Assembly: GCA_020832405.1 (NCBI GenBank)
Contig: JAFIET010000041.1
Coordinates: forward strand, 1-33,737
Length of the DNA stretch: 33,737 nucleotides
Origin: Balneolales bacterium
GTDB taxonomy: Bacteria; Bacteroidota; Rhodothermia; Balneolales; Cyclonatronaceae
Reading direction: 5' to 3'
Both the position numbers and the translations under genes were made by a program. How positions within the stretch are numbered: position 1 is the stretch's first letter; each line of letters starts with the position of its first letter. The notes under the pieces were generated by a model that saw only the letters and a list, made by a program, of their open reading frames with translations, was not told the DNA's origin and searched no databases. Below, in pieces: positions 17,145 through 25,933 of the stretch.

Positions 17145-18941
17145 TTAGTTGTCGTTCATTGAGAGAACGGCTAAGAAGGCCTCTTGTGGTATCTCAACCG
17201 AGCCAACTTGCTTCATTCTTTTTTTACCTTCTTTTTGCTTCTCAAGCAGCTTGCGTTTACGGGTAATGTCACCTCCGTAACATTTTGCGATTACATCTTT
17301 ACGCATGGCGCGAATGGTGTCACGCGCGATTACTTTTTTGCCGATGGCGGCCTGAATGGCAACTTCATACATCTGCCGCGGAATCAGCTCTTTGAGTTTT
17401 GCGCAGAGTTTCTTGCCCCATTCGTAGGCTTTGTCGCGGTGTACGATGCTGGAAAGCGCATCAACCGGCTCGCCGTTAAGCAGGATATCGAGCTTCACCA
17501 TGTTGCCGGGCCGCTGACCGATAAACTCGTAGTCGAGCGAAGCATAGCCGCGGGTCGAGCTTTTGAGCTTGTCATAAAAATCGAACACGACCTCTGCCAT
17601 CGGCAGCTCGTAGGTGAGGTCAACGCGGGTGGCGTCGAGGTACATGGTATTGATGTACTGTCCGCGCCGCTCCTGACACAGTTTCATAATGGCGCCGATG
17701 TACTCCGAAGGTGCAATGATCTGCGCTTTGATGTAGGGTTCGTAAATTTTCTCAATCAGGCCGGCTTCGGGCATATCGCTTGGGTTATCTACCATCATCC
17801 GTTTGCCGGCAGTGGTCTCTACCTCGTACTCCACGTTGGGTACGGTAGTGATGATATCCATGTCGAATTCCCGGTCGAGGCGCTCCTGCACGATTTCCAT
17901 GTGGAGCATGCCGAGGAAGCCGGCCCGGAAACCAAACCCAAGGGCAGCAGAGGTTTCCGGCACATAATTGAGGGAGGCATCATTGAGCTTCAGTTTTTCA
18001 AGTGCGGAACGCAGGCTTTCAAAATCTTCGCTGTTGGTCGGGTAGATACCGCTGAAAACCATCGGCTTTACTTCCTTGTAGCCGGGGATAGGTTCGGTAG
18101 CTCCGTTTTTGACCGTGGTGATGGTGTCGCCTACTTTGGTATCGGCCAGGGATTTCACGCTGCCGATAATATACCCGACCTCGCCGGCCCTGAGTTCGTC
18201 GCAGGGCGTCATTTTCATGCGAAGGTAACCGATTTCGTCAGCGTCGTAATCCTGCTCTACAGCCATGAAATTCATACGGTCGCCTTTTCTGAGAACGCCG
18301 TCCATGATTCTGACATATACGATGGAGCCACGGTAGGAATTAAAAACCGAATCGAAAATAAGAGCTTTCAGCGGCTTATCCGGGTCGCCTTTTGGCGGGG
18401 GCACGCGCTTGATGAGATGCTCCAGAAGCTCGGGCACGCCCATGCCGGTTTTACCGGAAACGTGCAAAATGTCTTCGCGCTCACAACCTATCAAATCCAT
18501 CACCTGCTGTGCGGAACCTTCAACATCAGCACCGGGCAGGTCAATTTTGTTGAGCACGGGGATAATCTCAAGATTTTGCTCAATGGCCTGATACAGGTTT
18601 GAAATCGTTTGGGCCTCAACACCCTGCGCTGCGTCAACAACGAGAATGGCGCCTTCACAAGCGGTTAGCGCCCTCGAAACTTCGTATGCAAAGTCAACGT
18701 GGCCGGGGGTATCTATCAGGTTGAAGATGTACTTTTGCCCGTCGAGGGCCGTGTAGTCCATTTTGATAGCGTGGCTCTTGATGGTGATGCCCCGTTCGCG
18801 TTCAAGATCCATATCGTCGAGAACCTGATTCTGCATCTCACGTTCGGTGATGGTGCCGGTTTTTTCGAGTAACCGGTCTGCGAGGGTGCTCTTACCGTGG
18901 TCGATATGAGCAATAATACAAAAGTTGCGAATGTGCTTCAT
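17145..18941 (-). CDS. lepA: Elongation factor 4 (ribosomal back-translocase)
   Basis: Translational GTPase that acts on stalled or mis-translocated ribosomes. G1 AHIDHGKS (11-18), switch II/G3 DTPGHVDF (77-84) and G4 NKID (131-134) are intact, as are the EF-Tu-like domain II and the LepA-specific C-terminal domain (lysine-rich ALMRKDV-type segment and [19 protein letters not shown]-like region, seen here as [17 protein letters not shown]). At 598 aa it matches the family. The ATG at 18941 directly precedes the conserved [13 protein letters not shown]. It heads a run with the unknown exported protein and lepB, repeating the lepA-lepB neighbourhood seen in many bacteria. Confidence 0.97.
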
Positions 18942-19179: not shown

Positions 19180-19187
19180 TATATTTG
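19180..19187 (+). promoter_or_regulatory. Candidate -7 element of the his leader promoter
   Basis: TATATTTG fits the Bacteroidota -7 consensus TAnnTTTG perfectly. No TTTG sits at the usual 19-20 bp upstream, so the promoter would be weak or regulated. Transcription would start near 19193 and give a leader of about 300 nt before hisG. Confidence 0.3.
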
Positions 19188-19217
19188 CGGTAATGAAAAA
19201 AATAAATTCAATACCTA

Positions 19218-19412
19218 ATGATGCAGCAGTTTCTGCGGAAGTATCACAAAAGCGTGTTTCGGGATTTCCCGCAGGTTTGGTATGGCAGCATTACACTGAT
19301 CTACTGATGCTCACGGAGTTTTCACCAAAAAAACATGATTGGTATCATCACGGTCATGGTATTCGGGCTGCACACACCGGCTGCAAAACTTTGCATGATT
19401 GAACGTATTTGA
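19218..19412 (+). pseudogene. Possible small membrane-protein gene broken by two single-base indels
   Basis: From ATG 19218 a frame reads as plausible protein (starting MMQQFLRKYHKSVFRDF) with G/C-rich third positions like the neighbouring genes, then meets TGA at 19305. Adding one base there (TAC CTG ATG for TAC TGATG) continues into LMLTEFSPK; removing one A from the A7 run at 19327-19333 returns to the first frame, which goes on as a hydrophobic segment (MIGIITVMVFGLHTP) to TGA at 19410-19412. The repaired product would be about 64 aa with one or two membrane segments. Both changes are at short homopolymers, so decay or sequence error are possible. The same bases also encode the His-rich frame of the proposed leader, and the two readings compete. 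Confidence 0.35.
19307..19402 (+). promoter_or_regulatory. Candidate His-rich leader peptide frame of the his operon
   Basis: A 31-codon frame from ATG 19307 (or 69 codons from ATG 19193) with six His codons, four of them within eight codons (H-D-W-Y-H-H-G-H at 19334-19357), ending 38 nt before the terminator stem upstream of hisG. Such a frame is what a translation-coupled attenuator would use to sense charged tRNA-His. Third positions upstream of 19300 in this frame are AT-rich, so only the short version looks reasonable. It could also be the shifted shadow of the broken small gene. Confidence 0.35.
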
Positions 19413-19485
19413 TACCCGCTTCGTTTAAAAACCGCCACTCAGCCGGCTGAATACACAAAACAGTATCAGACCGGCTTTTTTGTTT
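19376..19485 (+). terminator. Terminator / candidate attenuator upstream of hisG
   Basis: Stem AGCCGGCTGA (19441-19450) pairs with TCAG-A-CCGGCT (19466-19476, one bulged A) and is followed by TTTTTTGTTT. It ends only 10-35 nt before the possible hisG start codons, which leaves no room for a promoter after it, so hisG transcripts must read through it. An upstream copy of ACCGGCT (19376-19382) can pair with the same arm (CCGGCTG 19377-19383 with CAGCCGG 19440-19446), forming a competing antiterminator. The stem and T-tract are seen; attenuation is inferred. Confidence 0.65.
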
Positions 19486-19518
19486 CGGTACCCCTTGAAT
19501 TCAAAACAGTTAGATTTT

Positions 19519-20388
19519 TTGGAACCTGTACAAACCCTTCGGATTGCCATCCAGAAAAGCGGACGGCTCACAGAAAAAACCATTACCCTGCTCGAAAACA
19601 TCGGCATTAAGTTTGACGGCTACAAAAACCGCCTGCTTGTTAAAGCTCTGAATTTTGATGTTGAACTGCTGCTCATACGCGATGACGACATCCCTGAGTA
19701 TGTGCAGGACGGCATCTGCGATCTTGGCGTTGTAGGCGCGAATGTGACGCTCGAAACACAGGCCGACGTTACCGTGCTCAAAGACCTCGATTTCGGCCAT
19801 TGCCGGCTTTCGATTGCCAGCCCGGTAAGCCGCAGCATTGGCTCGGCTAAGGAGCTGGGCGGCAAACGTATTGCTACGAGCTACCCGGTGCTCACCAAAA
19901 AGTATTTTGAGAAACTTGGCCTTGATGTAAAGACCATCAAGATTTCCGGCGCGGTGGAAATTACGCCCCGTCTCGATGTGGCCGATGCCATCTGCGACCT
20001 TGTTTCGACCGGCAGCACGCTCAAGACCAACGGCTTGCGCGAGCTGGAGACGATTCTGCACTCGCAATCGCAGCTGATCCGCACCAACAAAGAGCTGCCG
20101 GAGCATAAAACGGAGCTCATTAATAAATTTTTGGTCCGTATTGAGGGGCAGCTGCTGGCGGAGAACAGCCGCTACATTATGATGAACGCCCCGAAGGAAT
20201 CGCTGGCGCGCATCACGGAAATCATCCCGGCGCTGAACAGTCCGACGGTGCTGCCGCTGGCCGACCCGAGCATGATTGCCATCCACACAGTGATTCCCAT
20301 TACCAAGTTCTGGGAAGTGATGGAAGAGCTCAAAGCCGCAGGCGCCACCGGCATCGTGATGCTGCCGATTCAGAATATGATTAACTAA
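19519..20388 (+). CDS. hisG: ATP phosphoribosyltransferase, long form
   Basis: First enzyme of histidine synthesis: joins ATP and PRPP. The N-terminal LRIAIQKSGRL, the DLGVVGANV segment and the PRPP-binding region ending in DLVSTGSTLKTNGL are present. The extension from about residue 205 is the ACT-like regulatory domain, so this is the long, HisZ-independent form that is normally feedback-inhibited by histidine. No ATG is available: I chose TTG 19519 because the family starts just before TLRIAIQ; TTG 19495 adds 8 residues and TTG 19480 lies in the terminator's T-tract. The next gene, hisD, begins 17 nt after the stop. Confidence 0.93.
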   Translation: MEPVQTLRIAIQKSGRLTEKTITLLENIGIKFDGYKNRLLVKALNFDVELLLIRDDDIPEYVQDGICDLGVVGANVTLETQADVTVLKDLDFGHCRLSIASPVSRSIGSAKELGGKRIATSYPVLTKKYFEKLGLDVKTIKISGAVEITPRLDVADAICDLVSTGSTLKTNGLRELETILHSQSQLIRTNKELPEHKTELINKFLVRIEGQLLAENSRYIMMNAPKESLARITEIIPALNSPTVLPLADPSMIAIHTVIPITKFWEVMEELKAAGATGIVMLPIQNMIN

Positions 20389-20405: not shown

Positions 20406-21716
20406 ATGAAAACCTACCACTATTCATCTTTGTCTGCTTCGGAAATCGCGGCCCTGTGCAAGCGCACCGCTGTTAATTTCGACCGGATTGAGCCGGTTGT
20501 GCGTGAAATTCTGCAGCAGGTGAAAACGCAGGGTGATGTTGCCGTGCAGGCCCTTACTCAAAAATTTGACGGCTTCTCGCCCGATCCGCTGGTAATTTCG
20601 GTACCGGATTTGGGTGATATCGAACTTTCTGCGGAAAAGAAAGCGGCCTTCGACCGCGCTTTTTCCAATATTCACGCATTTCACCTTGCACAGCGCCCCT
20701 CGCTGCTTTCCGTCGAAACCATGACCGGCGTTGTGTGCCGGCGTGAGGCCCGCCCGATTGAAGCTGTGGGACTCTACGTGCCCGGCGGCACAGCGGTGCT
20801 GCCTTCGACCGTGCTGATGCTCGGCGTACCGGCCATGATTGCGGAGTGCCCGGTGCGTGTGATGGCAACGCCGCCGCGCAAAGACGGCAGTATTGCACCT
20901 GAAATTCTGTACTGTGCCGCGCTCACGGGCATCACACATATTGTGAAAGCCGGCGGGGCACAGGCTGTTGCGGCCATGGCCTACGGCACCGAAACCGTGC
21001 CCAAAGTGAACAAGATTTTTGGTCCCGGTAATCAGTACGTTACCTGCGCCAAAATGCTGGTTTCGCAGTCAGATGCCATTGTGGGCATCGATATGCCGGC
21101 GGGACCTTCGGAGGTGCTTGTAATTGCCGACGAAACCGCGGACCCTGAATTCGTGGCCGCTGACCTGCTCTCACAAGCCGAGCACGGGGCCGACTCGCAG
21201 GTTGTGCTGGTTACCACAAGCGAAGCCTTACTGGCAGAAACGCTGGCCGAAGTTGCGCGTCAGCTCGAAACCCTGCCCCGCATGGAAGCCGCCCGACTGG
21301 CCCTGGCCAACAGCAGCGCCGTGCTGGTCGAAAGCCGGGAGCAGGCACTCGCCTTTTCCAACCTTTGGGCGCCCGAGCACCTGATCATCGCATCTCATAT
21401 GGCAGCGGAGTATGTCCCCGGTATTACAAGTGCGGGCTCGGTTTTCCTCGGAAACTGGACTCCCGAAAGTGCCGGCGACTATGCCTCAGGCACCAATCAC
21501 ACCTTGCCCACAAGCGGCTACGCGGCCATGTACAGCGGCGTGTCGCTGGATTCTTTCTATAAAATGATCACCTTTCAGGAACTCAGCCCCGAGGGGCTGC
21601 GCGATCTGGGTCCAACTGTTGAGGTGATGGCACAGGCCGAGGGCCTCGAAGCCCACAAGCAGGCCGTTACCCGCCGCCTGAACCGCTTCGCACAAATCAA
21701 GACTGATTTACCCTGA
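20406..21716 (+). CDS. hisD: Histidinol dehydrogenase
   Basis: Zinc- and NAD-dependent enzyme oxidising histidinol to histidine in two steps, the end of the pathway. Zinc ligands are Q257 and H260 in LLSQAEHGADSQ, D358 in SAGDYASGTNH and H417 near the C-terminus (EGLEAHKQ). The catalytic pair E324-H325 is in NLWAPEHLII. The glycine-rich VGLYVPGGTAVLPSTVLM and IFGPGNQYVT segments match the family. At 436 aa it has normal length. The spacing to hisG (17 nt) and hisC (16 nt) indicates one operon. Confidence 0.97.
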   Translation: MKTYHYSSLSASEIAALCKRTAVNFDRIEPVVREILQQVKTQGDVAVQALTQKFDGFSPDPLVISVPDLGDIELSAEKKAAFDRAFSNIHAFHLAQRPSLLSVETMTGVVCRREARPIEAVGLYVPGGTAVLPSTVLMLGVPAMIAECPVRVMATPPRKDGSIAPEILYCAALTGITHIVKAGGAQAVAAMAYGTETVPKVNKIFGPGNQYVTCAKMLVSQSDAIVGIDMPAGPSEVLVIADETADPEFVAADLLSQAEHGADSQVVLVTTSEALLAETLAEVARQLETLPRMEAARLALANSSAVLVESREQALAFSNLWAPEHLIIASHMAAEYVPGITSAGSVFLGNWTPESAGDYASGTNHTLPTSGYAAMYSGVSLDSFYKMITFQELSPEGLRDLGPTVEVMAQAEGLEAHKQAVTRRLNRFAQIKTDLP

Positions 21717-21732
21717 CTTTCAACCCCGATCC

Positions 21733-22806
21733 ATGCCTGCATTTGATCCGCTGCCGCTGCTGCGCCCCAATATCCGCTCGCTGAAGCCCTACCGCTCTGC
21801 CCGCGATGATTTCAAGACCGGCATCCTGCTCGATGCCAACGAAAATCCTTTTCCGGCGGAGCTTCACCCTGAAGCGCAGCTCAACCGCTACCCCGACCCG
21901 CATTATGATGCCCTCCGTGACCGGCTGAGCACGCTCAAAGGCGTGCAGCCCTCACAGATTTTTCTCGGCAACGGCAGCGATGAAGCCATCGACATCCTCA
22001 TCCGCATGTTTTGCGAGCCGGGTAAAGACGCAATCGTAATCACCCCGCCCACCTACGGTATGTACCGGGTTAGCGCTGATATTCAGGATGTTAGGGTGAA
22101 GGAAGCTCCCCTTAATCCTGATTTCTCGCTTGATGCGGCATCCGTAATTGAAGCGGCCGCCTGCGCCAAGCTCGTTTTCCTGTGCTCGCCCAACAACCCG
22201 ACCGCAAACCGCCTCGACAGCGGGCAGCTTCGCGAGGTGCTGTCCGCGGCACAGTGCGTAGTGGTTGTGGATGAAGCCTACATCGATTTCAGTGCCGGTG
22301 AAAGCGCCCTGCGCTGGCTCGGGGAATTCCCGAACCTGGTAGTGATGCAGACCCTCTCGAAAGCCTGGGGACTTGCCGGCATCCGCCTCGGGATGGCCTT
22401 CGCCTCCGAAACCATCATCAGCTACATGATGCGGGTGAAGCCGCCCTACAACGTGAACACGCTCACGCAGCAGGCCGCGCTTCGGGTCCTGGCCGAGCCG
22501 GAACGAATATCCGCGTTGGTGAAGCAGCTGCTGCAGGAACGTGCCCGGCTTGCGGTGGCCCTGGCTAAATTCCCCGCCGTGTACAAAGTGGAGCCCAGCG
22601 ACGCCAATTTTCTGCTGGTAAGGGTGAAGGATGCCCTAAGCTGGTATAAAACCCTCGCCGCTGAAAATGTGATCGTGCGCTACCGCGGCGATCAGCTGCA
22701 CTGCGCGGACGGGCTCCGCATCACGGTCGGCAGCCCCGAAGAAAACGAAGCCCTGCTGAAGGCCTTCCAAAAACTGAGTGCTGAAATTCAACAACCATCA
22801 TCCTAA
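21733..22806 (+). CDS. hisC: Histidinol-phosphate aminotransferase
   Basis: PLP enzyme that transaminates imidazole acetol-phosphate to histidinol-phosphate. The N-terminal LDANENPF is the HisC hallmark; PLP contacts include N155 in SPNNPTANR, D180 and Y183 in VVDEAYIDF, and the Schiff-base lysine K210 in MQTLSKAWGLAGIRLG. The C-terminal LRITVGSPEEN completes the set. It is 357 aa, as expected. The ATG at 21733 is 16 nt after hisD, and the stop is 4 nt before the hisB start. Its place in the cluster makes this the histidine paralog rather than another aminotransferase. Confidence 0.96.
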   Translation: MPAFDPLPLLRPNIRSLKPYRSARDDFKTGILLDANENPFPAELHPEAQLNRYPDPHYDALRDRLSTLKGVQPSQIFLGNGSDEAIDILIRMFCEPGKDAIVITPPTYGMYRVSADIQDVRVKEAPLNPDFSLDAASVIEAAACAKLVFLCSPNNPTANRLDSGQLREVLSAAQCVVVVDEAYIDFSAGESALRWLGEFPNLVVMQTLSKAWGLAGIRLGMAFASETIISYMMRVKPPYNVNTLTQQAALRVLAEPERISALVKQLLQERARLAVALAKFPAVYKVEPSDANFLLVRVKDALSWYKTLAAENVIVRYRGDQLHCADGLRITVGSPEENEALLKAFQKLSAEIQQPSS

Positions 22807-22810
22807 AAAT

Positions 22811-23713
22811 ATGTCCCGTTTTTTTATTGCCGCTGAGGCTTTGTGTGAAGGAGAAGAGCTGCGGCCGTTCGCATTCCGTGCCCTCATACGCCTGCAGGAG
22901 GCCGGTGCAGCCCTGCTGCTTGATGCCGGGTTGCCGGCCGTCATCACCGAACGTCTGCGCCGCGAAGCGCTGCAATTTGAGTTGAAACCAGCTGAAGCAG
23001 TGGCGCAGGAAAAGGCGGGGGATGTCCGCCGTATCGGTGCCTCAGGCGATGGCCTCGTCATCACCACTGCCGGAATTGGGGCTGAGCCGCAAACCGCCGC
23101 CGACTGGCAGGCGCTGCTCGAACAGCTGCTGTTCCCGCCCCGTATCGGGCGCATCCGTCGCACCACCCGCGAAACCGACATCGAAGTCGAAATCAGGCTC
23201 GACGGCAGCGGGAAGCACGAAATCAGCACGGGTCTCGGCTTTTTCGATCACATGCTGGAGCAGATCGCGCGGCACGGGGGCGTAGATCTGAAGGTGAGGT
23301 GTAAAGGCGACCTGCACATCGACGAGCACCACACCATCGAAGACACTGCGCTTGCCCTGGGCGATGCCATCTCCGCGGCCCTGGGCGATAAGCGGGGCAT
23401 CACCCGCTACGCCTCCGTACTGCCGATGGACGAAACCCGCGCCATGACCGCGCTCGACCTTTCCGGCCGGCCGTATCTTGTGTTTGACGTAAGCTTCACC
23501 CGCGACAAAGTGGGCGATTTCCCCACCGAAATGGTGAAACATTTTTTTTACTCCCTTGCCATGAACACCAAGAGCACCCTGCATTTTGAAGTGAGCGGCG
23601 AGAACGATCATCACAAAATAGAGGCCATGTTTAAGGGCTTTGCAATCGTGCTGAAGCAGTCGGTGAAACGTACCGGCAGCCTCGAAATACCAAGCAGCAA
23701 AGGAGTTCTGTAA
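22811..23713 (+). CDS. hisB: Imidazoleglycerol-phosphate dehydratase with a vestigial N-terminal HAD domain
   Basis: Residues about 112-300 are a complete IGPD domain: FFDHMLEQIARHGG, HIDEHHTIEDTALALG, DETRAMTALDLSGRP, NDHHKIEAMFKGFA and the C-terminal PSSKGVL, with all metal-binding histidines. Residues 1-110 align by position with the histidinol-phosphatase half of bifunctional HisB, but are about 50 aa shorter and altered: the motif I DRDGT region reads IAAEA (both Asp lost), the metal-binding GD of motif III reads IGASG, and the Cys/His zinc loop is missing. The phosphatase is therefore almost certainly inactive and histidinol-phosphate must be hydrolysed by another enzyme. I use ATG 22811; an upstream ATG at 22778 would overlap hisC by 29 nt. 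Its stop overlaps the hisH start by one base. Confidence 0.93.
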   Translation: MSRFFIAAEALCEGEELRPFAFRALIRLQEAGAALLLDAGLPAVITERLRREALQFELKPAEAVAQEKAGDVRRIGASGDGLVITTAGIGAEPQTAADWQALLEQLLFPPRIGRIRRTTRETDIEVEIRLDGSGKHEISTGLGFFDHMLEQIARHGGVDLKVRCKGDLHIDEHHTIEDTALALGDAISAALGDKRGITRYASVLPMDETRAMTALDLSGRPYLVFDVSFTRDKVGDFPTEMVKHFFYSLAMNTKSTLHFEVSGENDHHKIEAMFKGFAIVLKQSVKRTGSLEIPSSKGVL

Positions 23714-24309
23714 TGATCAGCATCGTCGATTACCGGGCCGGCAACACAGCTTCGGTCTCCAATGCGCTGAAAAGGCTGGGGGCTGACTTCCGGATTACCA
23801 ACAGCATTGAGGAGCTCGAAGCTTCATCGGGCATCATTTTCCCCGGCGTCGGTCATGCTCAGGCAGCGATGAAGGCGCTGAAAGAGAATGGACTTGACGA
23901 CTGGCTTCGCGAAACGCCGCTGCCCGTGCTGGGTATCTGCCTCGGTATGCAGCTGCTTTTCGAGCACAGCGTTGAAGGTGATACCGACTGCCTCGGTCTG
24001 TTTCCGGGCAAACTGCTGCGCTTCAACGACCAAAGCGCCAAGGTGCCGCACATGGGCTGGAATACTTTCGATGAAATCGAAGAGGGGCATCCACTGATGC
24101 AGGGCATCACCCGCGACGATTACTTTTATTATGTGCACAGTTTTTATGCCCCCCCGGCTGCCCAAACCATAGGCAGCTGCAGCTATGCCGGGGTTACCTT
24201 CACCTCAGTAGCCGCTGAAGGCAACAAAATGGGGGTACAGTTTCACCCGGAAAAATCGGGTGATGCCGGCGCCCGGCTATTGGCAAACTTCATCAACCTC
24301 ACCCGCTGA
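23713..24309 (+). CDS. hisH: Imidazole glycerol phosphate synthase, glutaminase subunit
   Basis: Class I glutamine amidotransferase that feeds ammonia to HisF. The catalytic triad is visible: C76 in LGICLGMQLLF, H178 and E180 in GVQFHPEKSG. The oxyanion strand PGVGHAQAAM and the interdomain VPHMGWN are family-typical. It is 198 aa, normal. The ATG shares one base with the hisB stop (TAATG), which suggests translational coupling. Its obligate partner HisF is not encoded in the window, so hisF must lie elsewhere. Confidence 0.97.
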   Translation: MISIVDYRAGNTASVSNALKRLGADFRITNSIEELEASSGIIFPGVGHAQAAMKALKENGLDDWLRETPLPVLGICLGMQLLFEHSVEGDTDCLGLFPGKLLRFNDQSAKVPHMGWNTFDEIEEGHPLMQGITRDDYFYYVHSFYAPPAAQTIGSCSYAGVTFTSVAAEGNKMGVQFHPEKSGDAGARLLANFINLTR

Positions 24310-24336
24310 CCGCGGTTACAAATCACAAACAAGTCT

Positions 24337-25035
24337 ATGATCCGTATCCCCGCCATTGACCTCTACGACGGAAAAATTGTGCGCCTCAGGCAGGGCAGCT
24401 ACGACGAGGTAACCGTTTATGCCGACGACCCGGTCTCTTTTGCGGAGCGGCTGAGTGAGCGCGAAGATTTGCCGCGCCTGCACATTGTGGACCTCAACGG
24501 TGCCCGCGACGGCCGTTTTGAGAACCTCAGCCTTGTTGAAGCCATCGTGAAGCAAACCCCGCTGCAGGTGCAGATGGGCGGCGGCATCCGGCGCTTTGAG
24601 GATGTTGAACGCCTGCTTCTGGCGGGCGTGCATCGTGTGGTGTCGAGCTCTATGGCCGTGAACCGGCCGGAAGAGTGGCTAAGCGCACTCGAGGAGTTCG
24701 GGCCCGGCCGCTGTATTTTCGGCATGGACCTCAAAGACGGCAAGGTCGCTGTTGGCGGCTGGCTCGAAACCGACAACCGCACCCTCGAAGAGCTGCTCGG
24801 CCCCATGCTCAGCTACGGACTCACCGAAGTGCTTTGCACCGATATCGCCCGTGACGGCATGATGACCGGCCCGAACCTGCCCATGTATGCCGGTCTCCAA
24901 AAACGCTTTCCCGATCTCAATTTCATCGCGAGCGGAGGCGTTTCTTCCAACGAAGACCTCGCGCAGCTCGATACTGCGGGGCTTTTTGCCTGCGTAATCG
25001 GCAAGGCCTGGCTCGAAGGCATCGTGCAGATCTGA
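24337..25035 (+). CDS. hisA: ProFAR isomerase (HisA)
   Basis: Amadori isomerisation of ProFAR to PRFAR on a (beta/alpha)8 barrel. Catalytic D8 is in PAIDLYDGKIVRL and D169 in CTDIARDGMMTGPN; the phosphate-binding loops QMGGGIR and ASGGVSSNEDL are present. At 232 aa it is slightly short of the usual 240-245 but complete at both ends. It differs from HisF in having HisA's DLYDGK and CTDIARDG signatures. It is the last his gene here; hisF and hisI/hisE do not follow and a weak terminator overlaps its stop. Confidence 0.96.
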   Translation: MIRIPAIDLYDGKIVRLRQGSYDEVTVYADDPVSFAERLSEREDLPRLHIVDLNGARDGRFENLSLVEAIVKQTPLQVQMGGGIRRFEDVERLLLAGVHRVVSSSMAVNRPEEWLSALEEFGPGRCIFGMDLKDGKVAVGGWLETDNRTLEELLGPMLSYGLTEVLCTDIARDGMMTGPNLPMYAGLQKRFPDLNFIASGGVSSNEDLAQLDTAGLFACVIGKAWLEGIVQI

Positions 25036-25121: not shown

Positions 25122-25466
25122 CTACCCGAAAATTTCCAGTACCTCTGGCGGCATTCCGCTCTCACCGGAAAGAAATCCCCTGATGACATCCTGTTTTTGC
25201 AGGAGCAGCGCCGCAAGGTTTCTGGTGCTGATACCGGCACTCCGGATTCGGATTACCGGCGGCGGAGGCCCGTGCAGGTTCAGCAGGTCTATGAAATCAG
25301 CATCAAAAGTGACGACGCAGTAGCCGTTATCCCTGCAATGGTGCCATAGCCGGTGATCGGTGGCATCAATGAGGTTATCGGTCTTCACATGCCGTGAATC
25401 GGGGAAGGCTTCCTCAATTTTGGACAGAATCCGGAAAGAAATATTCTGGTCGAAAAACAGCTGCAT
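25122..25466 (-). CDS. DUF5615 PIN-like protein, probable toxin
   Basis: Resembles the DUF5615/Mut7-C-type PIN-like family, usually paired with a DUF433 antitoxin and presumed to be an RNase. Acidic residues typical of the fold are visible: D6 in FFDQNIS and the cluster in VVTFDADFIDLL, together with ATDHRLWHHCRDNGY in the place of the conserved A-x-D-x-x-I/L region. The 114-aa length is normal. The ATG at 25466 is 11 nt after the stop of the antitoxin-like gene, so the two are likely cotranscribed with the antitoxin first, the usual order. Toxicity is inferred from the family, not shown by sequence. Confidence 0.8.
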   Translation of the reverse strand: MQLFFDQNISFRILSKIEEAFPDSRHVKTDNLIDATDHRLWHHCRDNGYCVVTFDADFIDLLNLHGPPPPVIRIRSAGISTRNLAALLLQKQDVIRGFLSGESGMPPEVLEIFG

Positions 25467-25477
25467 CGGGCGGGCCT

Positions 25478-25933
25478 TTATACCATAGAAATGCGGCGCT
25501 CGCGGGAGGCGGCAAAATGCAGGCAGGCATGTATGGCGGCGGGGCTGAGCTCGGGGAAATCTTCGGTGATTTCGGTGATGCTCATGCCGGCGGCGAGGTA
25601 CCCAAGCACATCATAGACGGAGATGCGCGTACCTTTTATGCAGGGGCGCCCGAAGCGCACAGCGGGGTCTATTTTTATGAATTCGGTGAACATGATTTCT
25701 TTGTTTGGGATGTAGGGGAAATCGTTTGTGCTCAGATCGTCGTTAACGGCGAAAAACGGTACATCCTCGCCTGCAACGTTTTCGGTTTCAGGCGACAGCA
25801 GCGTTTCGTCTTCGGCAATCATGCGCAGGCTTATGCGCAGTTCTTCTTCAAGAGAGCGGTTATTTTGTGCGGCTCTCACTTTGAGCCTGAGCTTGGTTTC
25901 TTCGTCGAGGTTTCGGATGGTTACGCTGGCCAT
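25478..25933 (-). CDS. Fused antitoxin: FitA-type ribbon-helix-helix plus DUF433
   Basis: Residues 1-38 (MASVTIRNLDEETKLRLKVR, then NNRSLEEELRISL) match the ribbon-helix-helix DNA-binding domain of FitA-type antitoxins, which normally pair with VapC-like PIN toxins. Residues about 84-146 match DUF433 (DPAVRFGRPCIKGTRISVYDV, AAGMSITEITEDFPEL), the usual partner of DUF5615. A 45-residue acidic linker joins them. The frame is continuous and shows no sign of a frameshift. M81 (ATG at 25693) begins a stand-alone DUF433 of normal size (71 aa), so an internal start could give a second product. An inverted repeat TGATT-N7-AATCA at 25965-25981 upstream may be its operator. Confidence 0.82.
   Translation of the reverse strand: MASVTIRNLDEETKLRLKVRAAQNNRSLEEELRISLRMIAEDETLLSPETENVAGEDVPFFAVNDDLSTNDFPYIPNKEIMFTEFIKIDPAVRFGRPCIKGTRISVYDVLGYLAAGMSITEITEDFPELSPAAIHACLHFAASRERRISMV

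Follow-up and report, generated by a model that had tools for sequence, protein, structure and literature searches.

A probable leader-peptide attenuator in front of the histidine operon of a Balneolales bacterium

The stretch of DNA analyzed here, 33,737 nt from a Balneolales bacterium (hereafter the window), carries a hisGDCBHA cluster, and the segment 19180-19482 ahead of hisG is very probably a ribosome-mediated (leader-peptide) transcription attenuator of that operon, judging from sequence comparison and predicted RNA folds. Leader-peptide attenuation is a classical mechanism, and the elements of which it would be composed in the window are collected in Table 1. We infer that the stalling, the kinetic choice between folds and the response to histidine would run as follows. 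Transcription would begin near 19190, and the leader ORF would be translated from 19193 close behind the RNA polymerase. With ample His-tRNA, the ribosome would reach the stop at 19400, masking 19359-19383 in passing; 19441-19450 would then pair with 19467-19476, and the polymerase would halt at the T-tract 19477-19482, before hisG. With scarce His-tRNA, the ribosome would stall at 19334-19357, and 19359-19383 would stay free and capture 19440-19454 first. Once this antiterminator had formed, the terminator would come too late and hisGDCBHA would be transcribed.

Table 1. Features of the lepA-hisG gap and of the his cluster in the window
Feature	Position	Strand	Basis or remark
lepA	17145-18941	minus	flanks the gap upstream of hisG
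Candidate -7 promoter element, Bacteroidota type (TAnnTTTG), TATATTTG	19180-19187	+	consensus fit; relatives
Putative His leader ORF, 69 codons, MKKINSIPNDAAVSAEVSQKRVSGFPAGLVWQHYTDLLMLTEFSPKKHDWYHHGHGIRAAHTGCKTLHD, then stop	19193-19402	+	ORF list; His-rich ORF in the same place in genus members
Candidate control codons HDWYHHGH, four His in eight codons	19334-19357	+	sequence and shuffle test
Predicted antiterminator, outer 5' strand GTATTCGG	19359-19366	+	pairs with 19447-19454 (CTGAATAC); folding without the terminator 3' arm
Predicted antiterminator, inner 5' strand CCGGCTG	19377-19383	+	pairs with 19440-19446 (CAGCCGG); nested in the outer helix
Short conserved element TGAACGTATTTGATACCCGCTTCGTTT, AACG/CGTT hairpin	19400-19426	+	starts at the leader stop; genus comparison
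Shared segment: terminator 5' arm (19441-19450) and antiterminator 3' strand	19440-19454	+	folding
Predicted intrinsic terminator	19441-19482	+	stem 19441-19476, about -17 kcal/mol, then TTTTTT 19477-19482
hisG (long form)	19519-20388	+	TIGR00070, TIGR03455; likely start TTG 19519
hisD	20406-21716	+	in the hisGDCBHA cluster
hisC	21733-22806	+	in the hisGDCBHA cluster
hisB	up to 23713 (ORF 22778-23713)	+	in the hisGDCBHA cluster
hisH	23713-24309	+	in the hisGDCBHA cluster
hisA	24337-25035	+	end of the cluster 20406-25035 behind hisG

The closest named relatives of the window's HisG are found in Balneolales/Balneolia MAGs, followed by Balneolaceae, and in relatives such as L008 a GTG stands where the window has its likely hisG start. 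Within the cluster, the hisB ORF encodes about 105 additional N-terminal residues without similarity to HisB models; a short N-terminal domain, its role unclear, has been mentioned for the HisB of Balneolota (PMC8305728). Directly behind hisA, on the minus strand (25122-25933), a DUF5615 protein is encoded beside a FitA-like ribbon-helix-helix/DUF433 protein, an arrangement that looks like a toxin-antitoxin pair.

The putative leader has His codons at 19334, 19346, 19349, 19355, 19373 and 19394 and ends with TGA at 19400-19402. The original prediction had listed ATG 19307, these six codons, the stop, CCGGCTG at 19377-19383, CAGCCGG at 19440-19446 and both copies of ACCGGCT, and all of these coordinates were confirmed. 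It had also let the short frame begin at 19307; however, the frame with the His codons stays open upstream of that ATG, back to ATG 19193, which is most likely the true start of the leader. We took 19193 as the start because the TATATTTG box fits the -7 element of Bacteroidota (consensus TAnnTTTG, as given in PMC9723704) and because the relatives inspected (L002-L009) have a TATATT(C/T) box in a similar place, a short distance upstream of the leader start codon. Within the same genome, the trp leader described below has TAACTTCG at the equivalent position. No clear -33 element was detected ahead of the TATATTTG box, and a scan with the sigma-70 consensus, which is not expected to fit Bacteroidota, gave no convincing site. 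From the position of the box, we infer a transcription start near 19190.

The segment 19193-19402 is thus a short ORF with codons for the amino acid made by the operon, and its translation is predicted. When the gap was dinucleotide-shuffled 4000 times, an ORF that begins with ATG and packs four or more His into eight codons arose in 12 cases (p ~0.003). Clusters of this density turn up at several other sites when all six frames of the window are read, so the cluster ahead of hisG, taken alone, is moderate evidence. It is also weaker than the clusters of the relatives, with four His codons in eight and no run longer than two. The codons at 19373 and 19394 come late in the leader, and a stall there would favor termination. 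A hydrophobic ORF at 19335-19412 was set aside, since it reads the His codons in another frame, and a genome-wide search for the His-codon pattern was too unspecific for use.

The comparison with relatives is the deciding evidence. In 6/6 genomes of the genus, hisG has a short, His-rich ORF ahead of it. For example, the His clusters read HHRIRHHHLHH in L002, HLHHWHHHAHH in L004 and IHHLHHHAHPHH in L005; in fuller context, the leaders include ...STHHRIRHHHLHHAWC... (L002), ...KLHLHHWHHHALH... (L003), ...KLHLHHWHHHAHH... (L004), ...SIHHLHHHAHPHH... (L005) and ...AHYHRVSHNHQHRHQSHYHP... (L006). Among the other family members fetched, 3/5 (L007, L008, L009) have a dense His ORF before hisG, and a His leader ORF is found there also in most Balneolaceae and in Ignavibacteria. 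Most Balneolales have a His-rich ORF before hisG. In one group of Balneolales (e.g. L013, L015-L017, L019, L020, L022 and L025) no His ORF was found before hisG, so the leader would there have been lost, moved or replaced. Across the Balneolales leaders, the His cluster is kept and the N-terminal parts have no evident common sequence. This is the opposite of what the original prediction had regarded as adverse to it, a hydrophobic frame kept intact without its His codons.

These comparisons also bear on the possibility that a small gene has left the His-rich frame behind as its remnant or shadow, with the hairpin serving as a constitutive or weak terminator before hisG. The modest cluster in the window and the similar clusters found by chance in other frames would fit such a history, and a hairpin with a T-tract could, by itself, be a plain terminator. 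Nevertheless, we consider this very improbable, since His codons are densely clustered at this position in the relatives, in peptides that otherwise share no sequence, and since a constitutive terminator with no other promoter before hisG would silence the operon. The leader peptide has no Pfam match and belongs to no Pfam family; with neither such a match nor a conserved N-terminus, the broken small gene that had been named as the main rival is disfavored.

Beyond the order, we chose 40 hisG upstream regions across Bacteroidota as a phylum sample. A His leader was present in most of the regions with a long-form HisG, for example MTFIQLHHHHHHICTQAN in L147 and MNGYKQHHLSLHHHHHVVIR in L140. The original prediction had supposed an independent or divergent version in this lineage. 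Such a version is not peculiar to the lineage, given comparable His leaders across Bacteroidota and the report on Flavobacterium psychrophilum (PMC9723704) discussed below.

Leader-peptide control of the operon also calls on the sequence between the leader ORF and the first structural gene, where the predicted intrinsic terminator is located (19441-19482). The stem and the T-tract are as they had been described, but not "just before hisG": some 37 nt separate the end of the T-tract from TTG 19519. The sequence ACCGGCT occurs twice, at 19376 and, within the stem, at 19470. In the closest relative, L002, the terminator arms and the T-tract are kept and the loop between the arms has diverged, which is the pattern left by selection on a terminator. 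The arms are identical in L002, the sole alignable relative. Within the genus, L005 has a different terminator-like hairpin before hisG, and no clear terminator was found before hisG in L003, L004 or L006; the window, L002 and L005 thus have one. In L012, a member of another family, a very strong terminator (GAACCCGACGTGG...CCACGTCGGGTTT with a T-tract, -22.5 kcal/mol) lies at -83 to -41 of hisG, and no His leader ORF was found before that hisG despite it.

Competition with the terminator was modeled by placing a ribosome at chosen codons and folding the transcript beyond it as it stands prior to synthesis of the terminator 3' arm. For a ribosome at 19346 or 19349, all or most of 19359-19366 (GUAUUCGG) pairs with 19447-19454 (CUGAAUAC); for one at 19355, the helix 19377-19383/19440-19446 is dominant (P 0.83), and at 19373 neither antiterminator helix forms. 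The two helices combine into a 15-pair antiterminator over the whole terminator 5' arm, at -21.7 kcal/mol against an unconstrained minimum of -22.9 kcal/mol, both without the terminator 3' arm. The CCGGCTG/CAGCCGG pairing of the original prediction was therefore recovered but turned out to be longer than had been described, with 19359-19366 and 19377-19383 both engaging 19440-19454. The predicted antiterminator uses one arm of the terminator and would be available only on a stall at the control codons; in the window alone it is borderline against shuffles (5% and 11% in two tests). With the His cluster kept among relatives, the terminator kept in L002 and the pairings mutually exclusive, the proposed geometry of classical attenuation is supported.

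In full-length RNA at equilibrium, the terminator is always preferred (P 0.96-0.98); its energy is -30.5 kcal/mol, and enforcing the antiterminator gives -25.4 kcal/mol, a difference of about 5 kcal/mol in favor of the terminator. When the E. coli his leader was treated by the same method as a control, it likewise showed the terminator in every state. Equilibrium folding was thus uninformative as a test for a switch, and the choice must be kinetic, set by the order of synthesis. Compared with shuffled tails, the interaction of leader tail and spacer has a z of -1.7 in the window (5%) and -1.95 in E. coli his (4%); averaged over the window's family z is -1.5, and over Ignavibacteria -2.2. Because RNAduplex of the leader tail against the spacer over-extends through large loops, fold-difference and contiguous-helix tests were used instead. 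The fold of the whole leader RNA is not unusually stable (z -0.98). In two members of the genus, leader tail and spacer form a long helix with no T-tract terminator behind it, UUGCGCGCGAAA/UUUCGCGCGCGG in L003 and AUAGCGCG/CGCGCUGU in L004; the sequences of these antiterminators differ, and both pair.

A further short element is conserved at the end of the leader. Genus-wide, GAACGYA...GCTTCGTTT lies behind or overlaps the leader stop and could form a small AACG/CGTT hairpin. The motif GAACGYA-N(8-16)-CTTCGTTT (19401-19426 in the window) has a single copy in the window's genome; in the genus it is found at hisG only, save for one exception in G002. Because the element sits at the leader stop, this hairpin would be opened by a ribosome arriving there.

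The arrangement resembles hisL of E. coli and Salmonella in having an ORF with His codons before hisG, an intrinsic terminator and a competing helix that would be freed by a stalled ribosome, and the E. coli his leader behaved in the same way in the folding control. However, E. coli hisL is 16 codons long and includes seven consecutive His codons, whereas the window's leader has 69 codons with dispersed His codons, and the candidate promoter box in the window is of the Bacteroidota type and lies directly at the ATG. The Rfam model of such leaders, RF00514 (His_leader, gathering score 49 bits), had no match in the window at the gathering threshold, and a search of the whole genome down to E 10 returned only sub-threshold noise, with nothing at the leader; in the control for this model, 1/14 genomes was above the cut-off.

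A non-peptide RNA sensor before hisG, such as a T-box or a riboswitch, would make the His codons incidental, and in Firmicutes and Actinobacteria his genes are indeed under T-box control (PMC9413887). An Rfam scan, however, gave no family at threshold anywhere in the window, T-boxes and riboswitches included, and the conserved feature is the His codons. Such a sensor is accordingly the most improbable of the alternatives considered here, and a leader peptide remains the preferred reading.

Within the phylum, leader-peptide attenuation has been proposed for amino-acid operons of F. psychrophilum from transcriptome data, and a structured 5' element of hisG that is conserved among Flavobacteriaceae and has no Rfam entry was reported there (PMC9723704). 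The likeness to the window extends to the phylum, the proposed mechanism and a hisG 5' element without an Rfam family. The leader, terminator and antiterminator sequences, in contrast, are unlike those of the window, and Balneolales are not covered in that report. Leader-like sORFs have also been noted in 5' UTRs of B. thetaiotaomicron (PMC7366714). On his attenuators of Bacteroidetes, the direct report in the literature accessible to our search is PMC9723704; a 2010 comparative survey, cited in PMC4833913, lay outside that search, and a prior prediction for the group at hand may exist.

The same geometry recurs with other sequences. In Ignavibacteria/Melioribacteraceae (L100-L109), a CCCCGGC...GCCGGGG-T6 terminator is present whose 5' arm pairs with GCCGG at the leader end, as CAGCCGG pairs with CCGGCTG in the window. 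These leaders differ from that of the window in being compact (about 20-25 codons), in having a single antiterminator helix and in being much clearer. In L147, the leader tail CTCAGGCG pairs with the terminator CGTTTGAG, and in several Bacteroidota CTCAAGCG-type leader tails pair with CGTTTGAG arms. By their predicted pairings, the cases from Ignavibacteria and Bacteroidota are the logic of the window in unrelated letters.

The window's genome seems to hold further leaders of this kind. Before trpE (G000:C8:78679) there is a Trp-Trp-Trp leader, MNFKSTANSWWWLFAVAD (L167 positions 1276-1332), and behind it a GCCCGC...GCGGG-T6 terminator (-15.8 kcal/mol); by the same signs, the two would make up a second amino-acid attenuator. 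Upstream of ilvB (L171; G000:C178, minus strand), Ile/Leu-rich short frames (ICIIAAISSIIIISGLIILL...) are followed by a CCAGAGG...CCTCTGG inverted repeat, a probable branched-chain leader.

In most Balneolaceae (the L021 and L041-L091 regions) the His leader is kept and an intrinsic terminator was not found before hisG. A TTGG...TA-nTTT promoter-like block is present in most of them, with the start codon right behind it and then the His leader. Their leader-hisG spacers are C-rich and G-poor, with (C-G)/(C+G) of 0.49 +/- 0.10 (n=30), compared with 0.04 +/- 0.21 (n=74) and -0.03 +/- 0.17 (n=52) in two Balneolaceae genomes when the sequence ahead of other genes is taken as the control. Pairing of leader tail and spacer is weak in these bacteria (mean z about -0.9 to -1.1, from sequences that are non-independent). 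Rho binds weakly folded RNA with an excess of C over G. This preference and the composition of the spacers together led us to propose that the output has changed from an intrinsic to a Rho-dependent terminator. Tentatively, the His sensor would be kept throughout Balneolales while its output changes, with an intrinsic terminator in the window's genus and a Rho-dependent one in most Balneolaceae, where the position of the ribosome would gate exposure of the spacer; the genus would represent the terminator-based state and L003 and L004 an intermediate.

It is rather unlikely, though less so than the two alternatives above, that Rho-dependent termination (or translation) also controls the operon in the window, with the intrinsic terminator being only a part of the control in this genus; in sister families that have no intrinsic terminator, such control seems likely. 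The strong excess of C over G behind His leaders that have no intrinsic terminator in most Balneolaceae points in that direction, as do L003 and L004, which have no T-tract and yet keep the long pairing of leader tail with spacer. On the other hand, the window has a good intrinsic terminator, which is kept in L002, and the bias of its own spacer is merely 0.23.

The mechanism is already known, and the Balneolales attenuator is an added case of it outside Rfam RF00514. With it, Balneolales would be counted among the groups that control histidine synthesis by a leader peptide. Since the Rfam his-leader model misses the leader of the window, annotation overlooks such leaders, though they are spread through Bacteroidota. 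Shine-Dalgarno signals are generally absent in these bacteria. Together with a leader that apparently starts near the 5' end of the transcript, this would make the operon a test case for the coupling of ribosome and polymerase outside Proteobacteria. The sister lineages that have the His leader without the intrinsic terminator may offer a natural series on how one sensor is rewired to another type of terminator.
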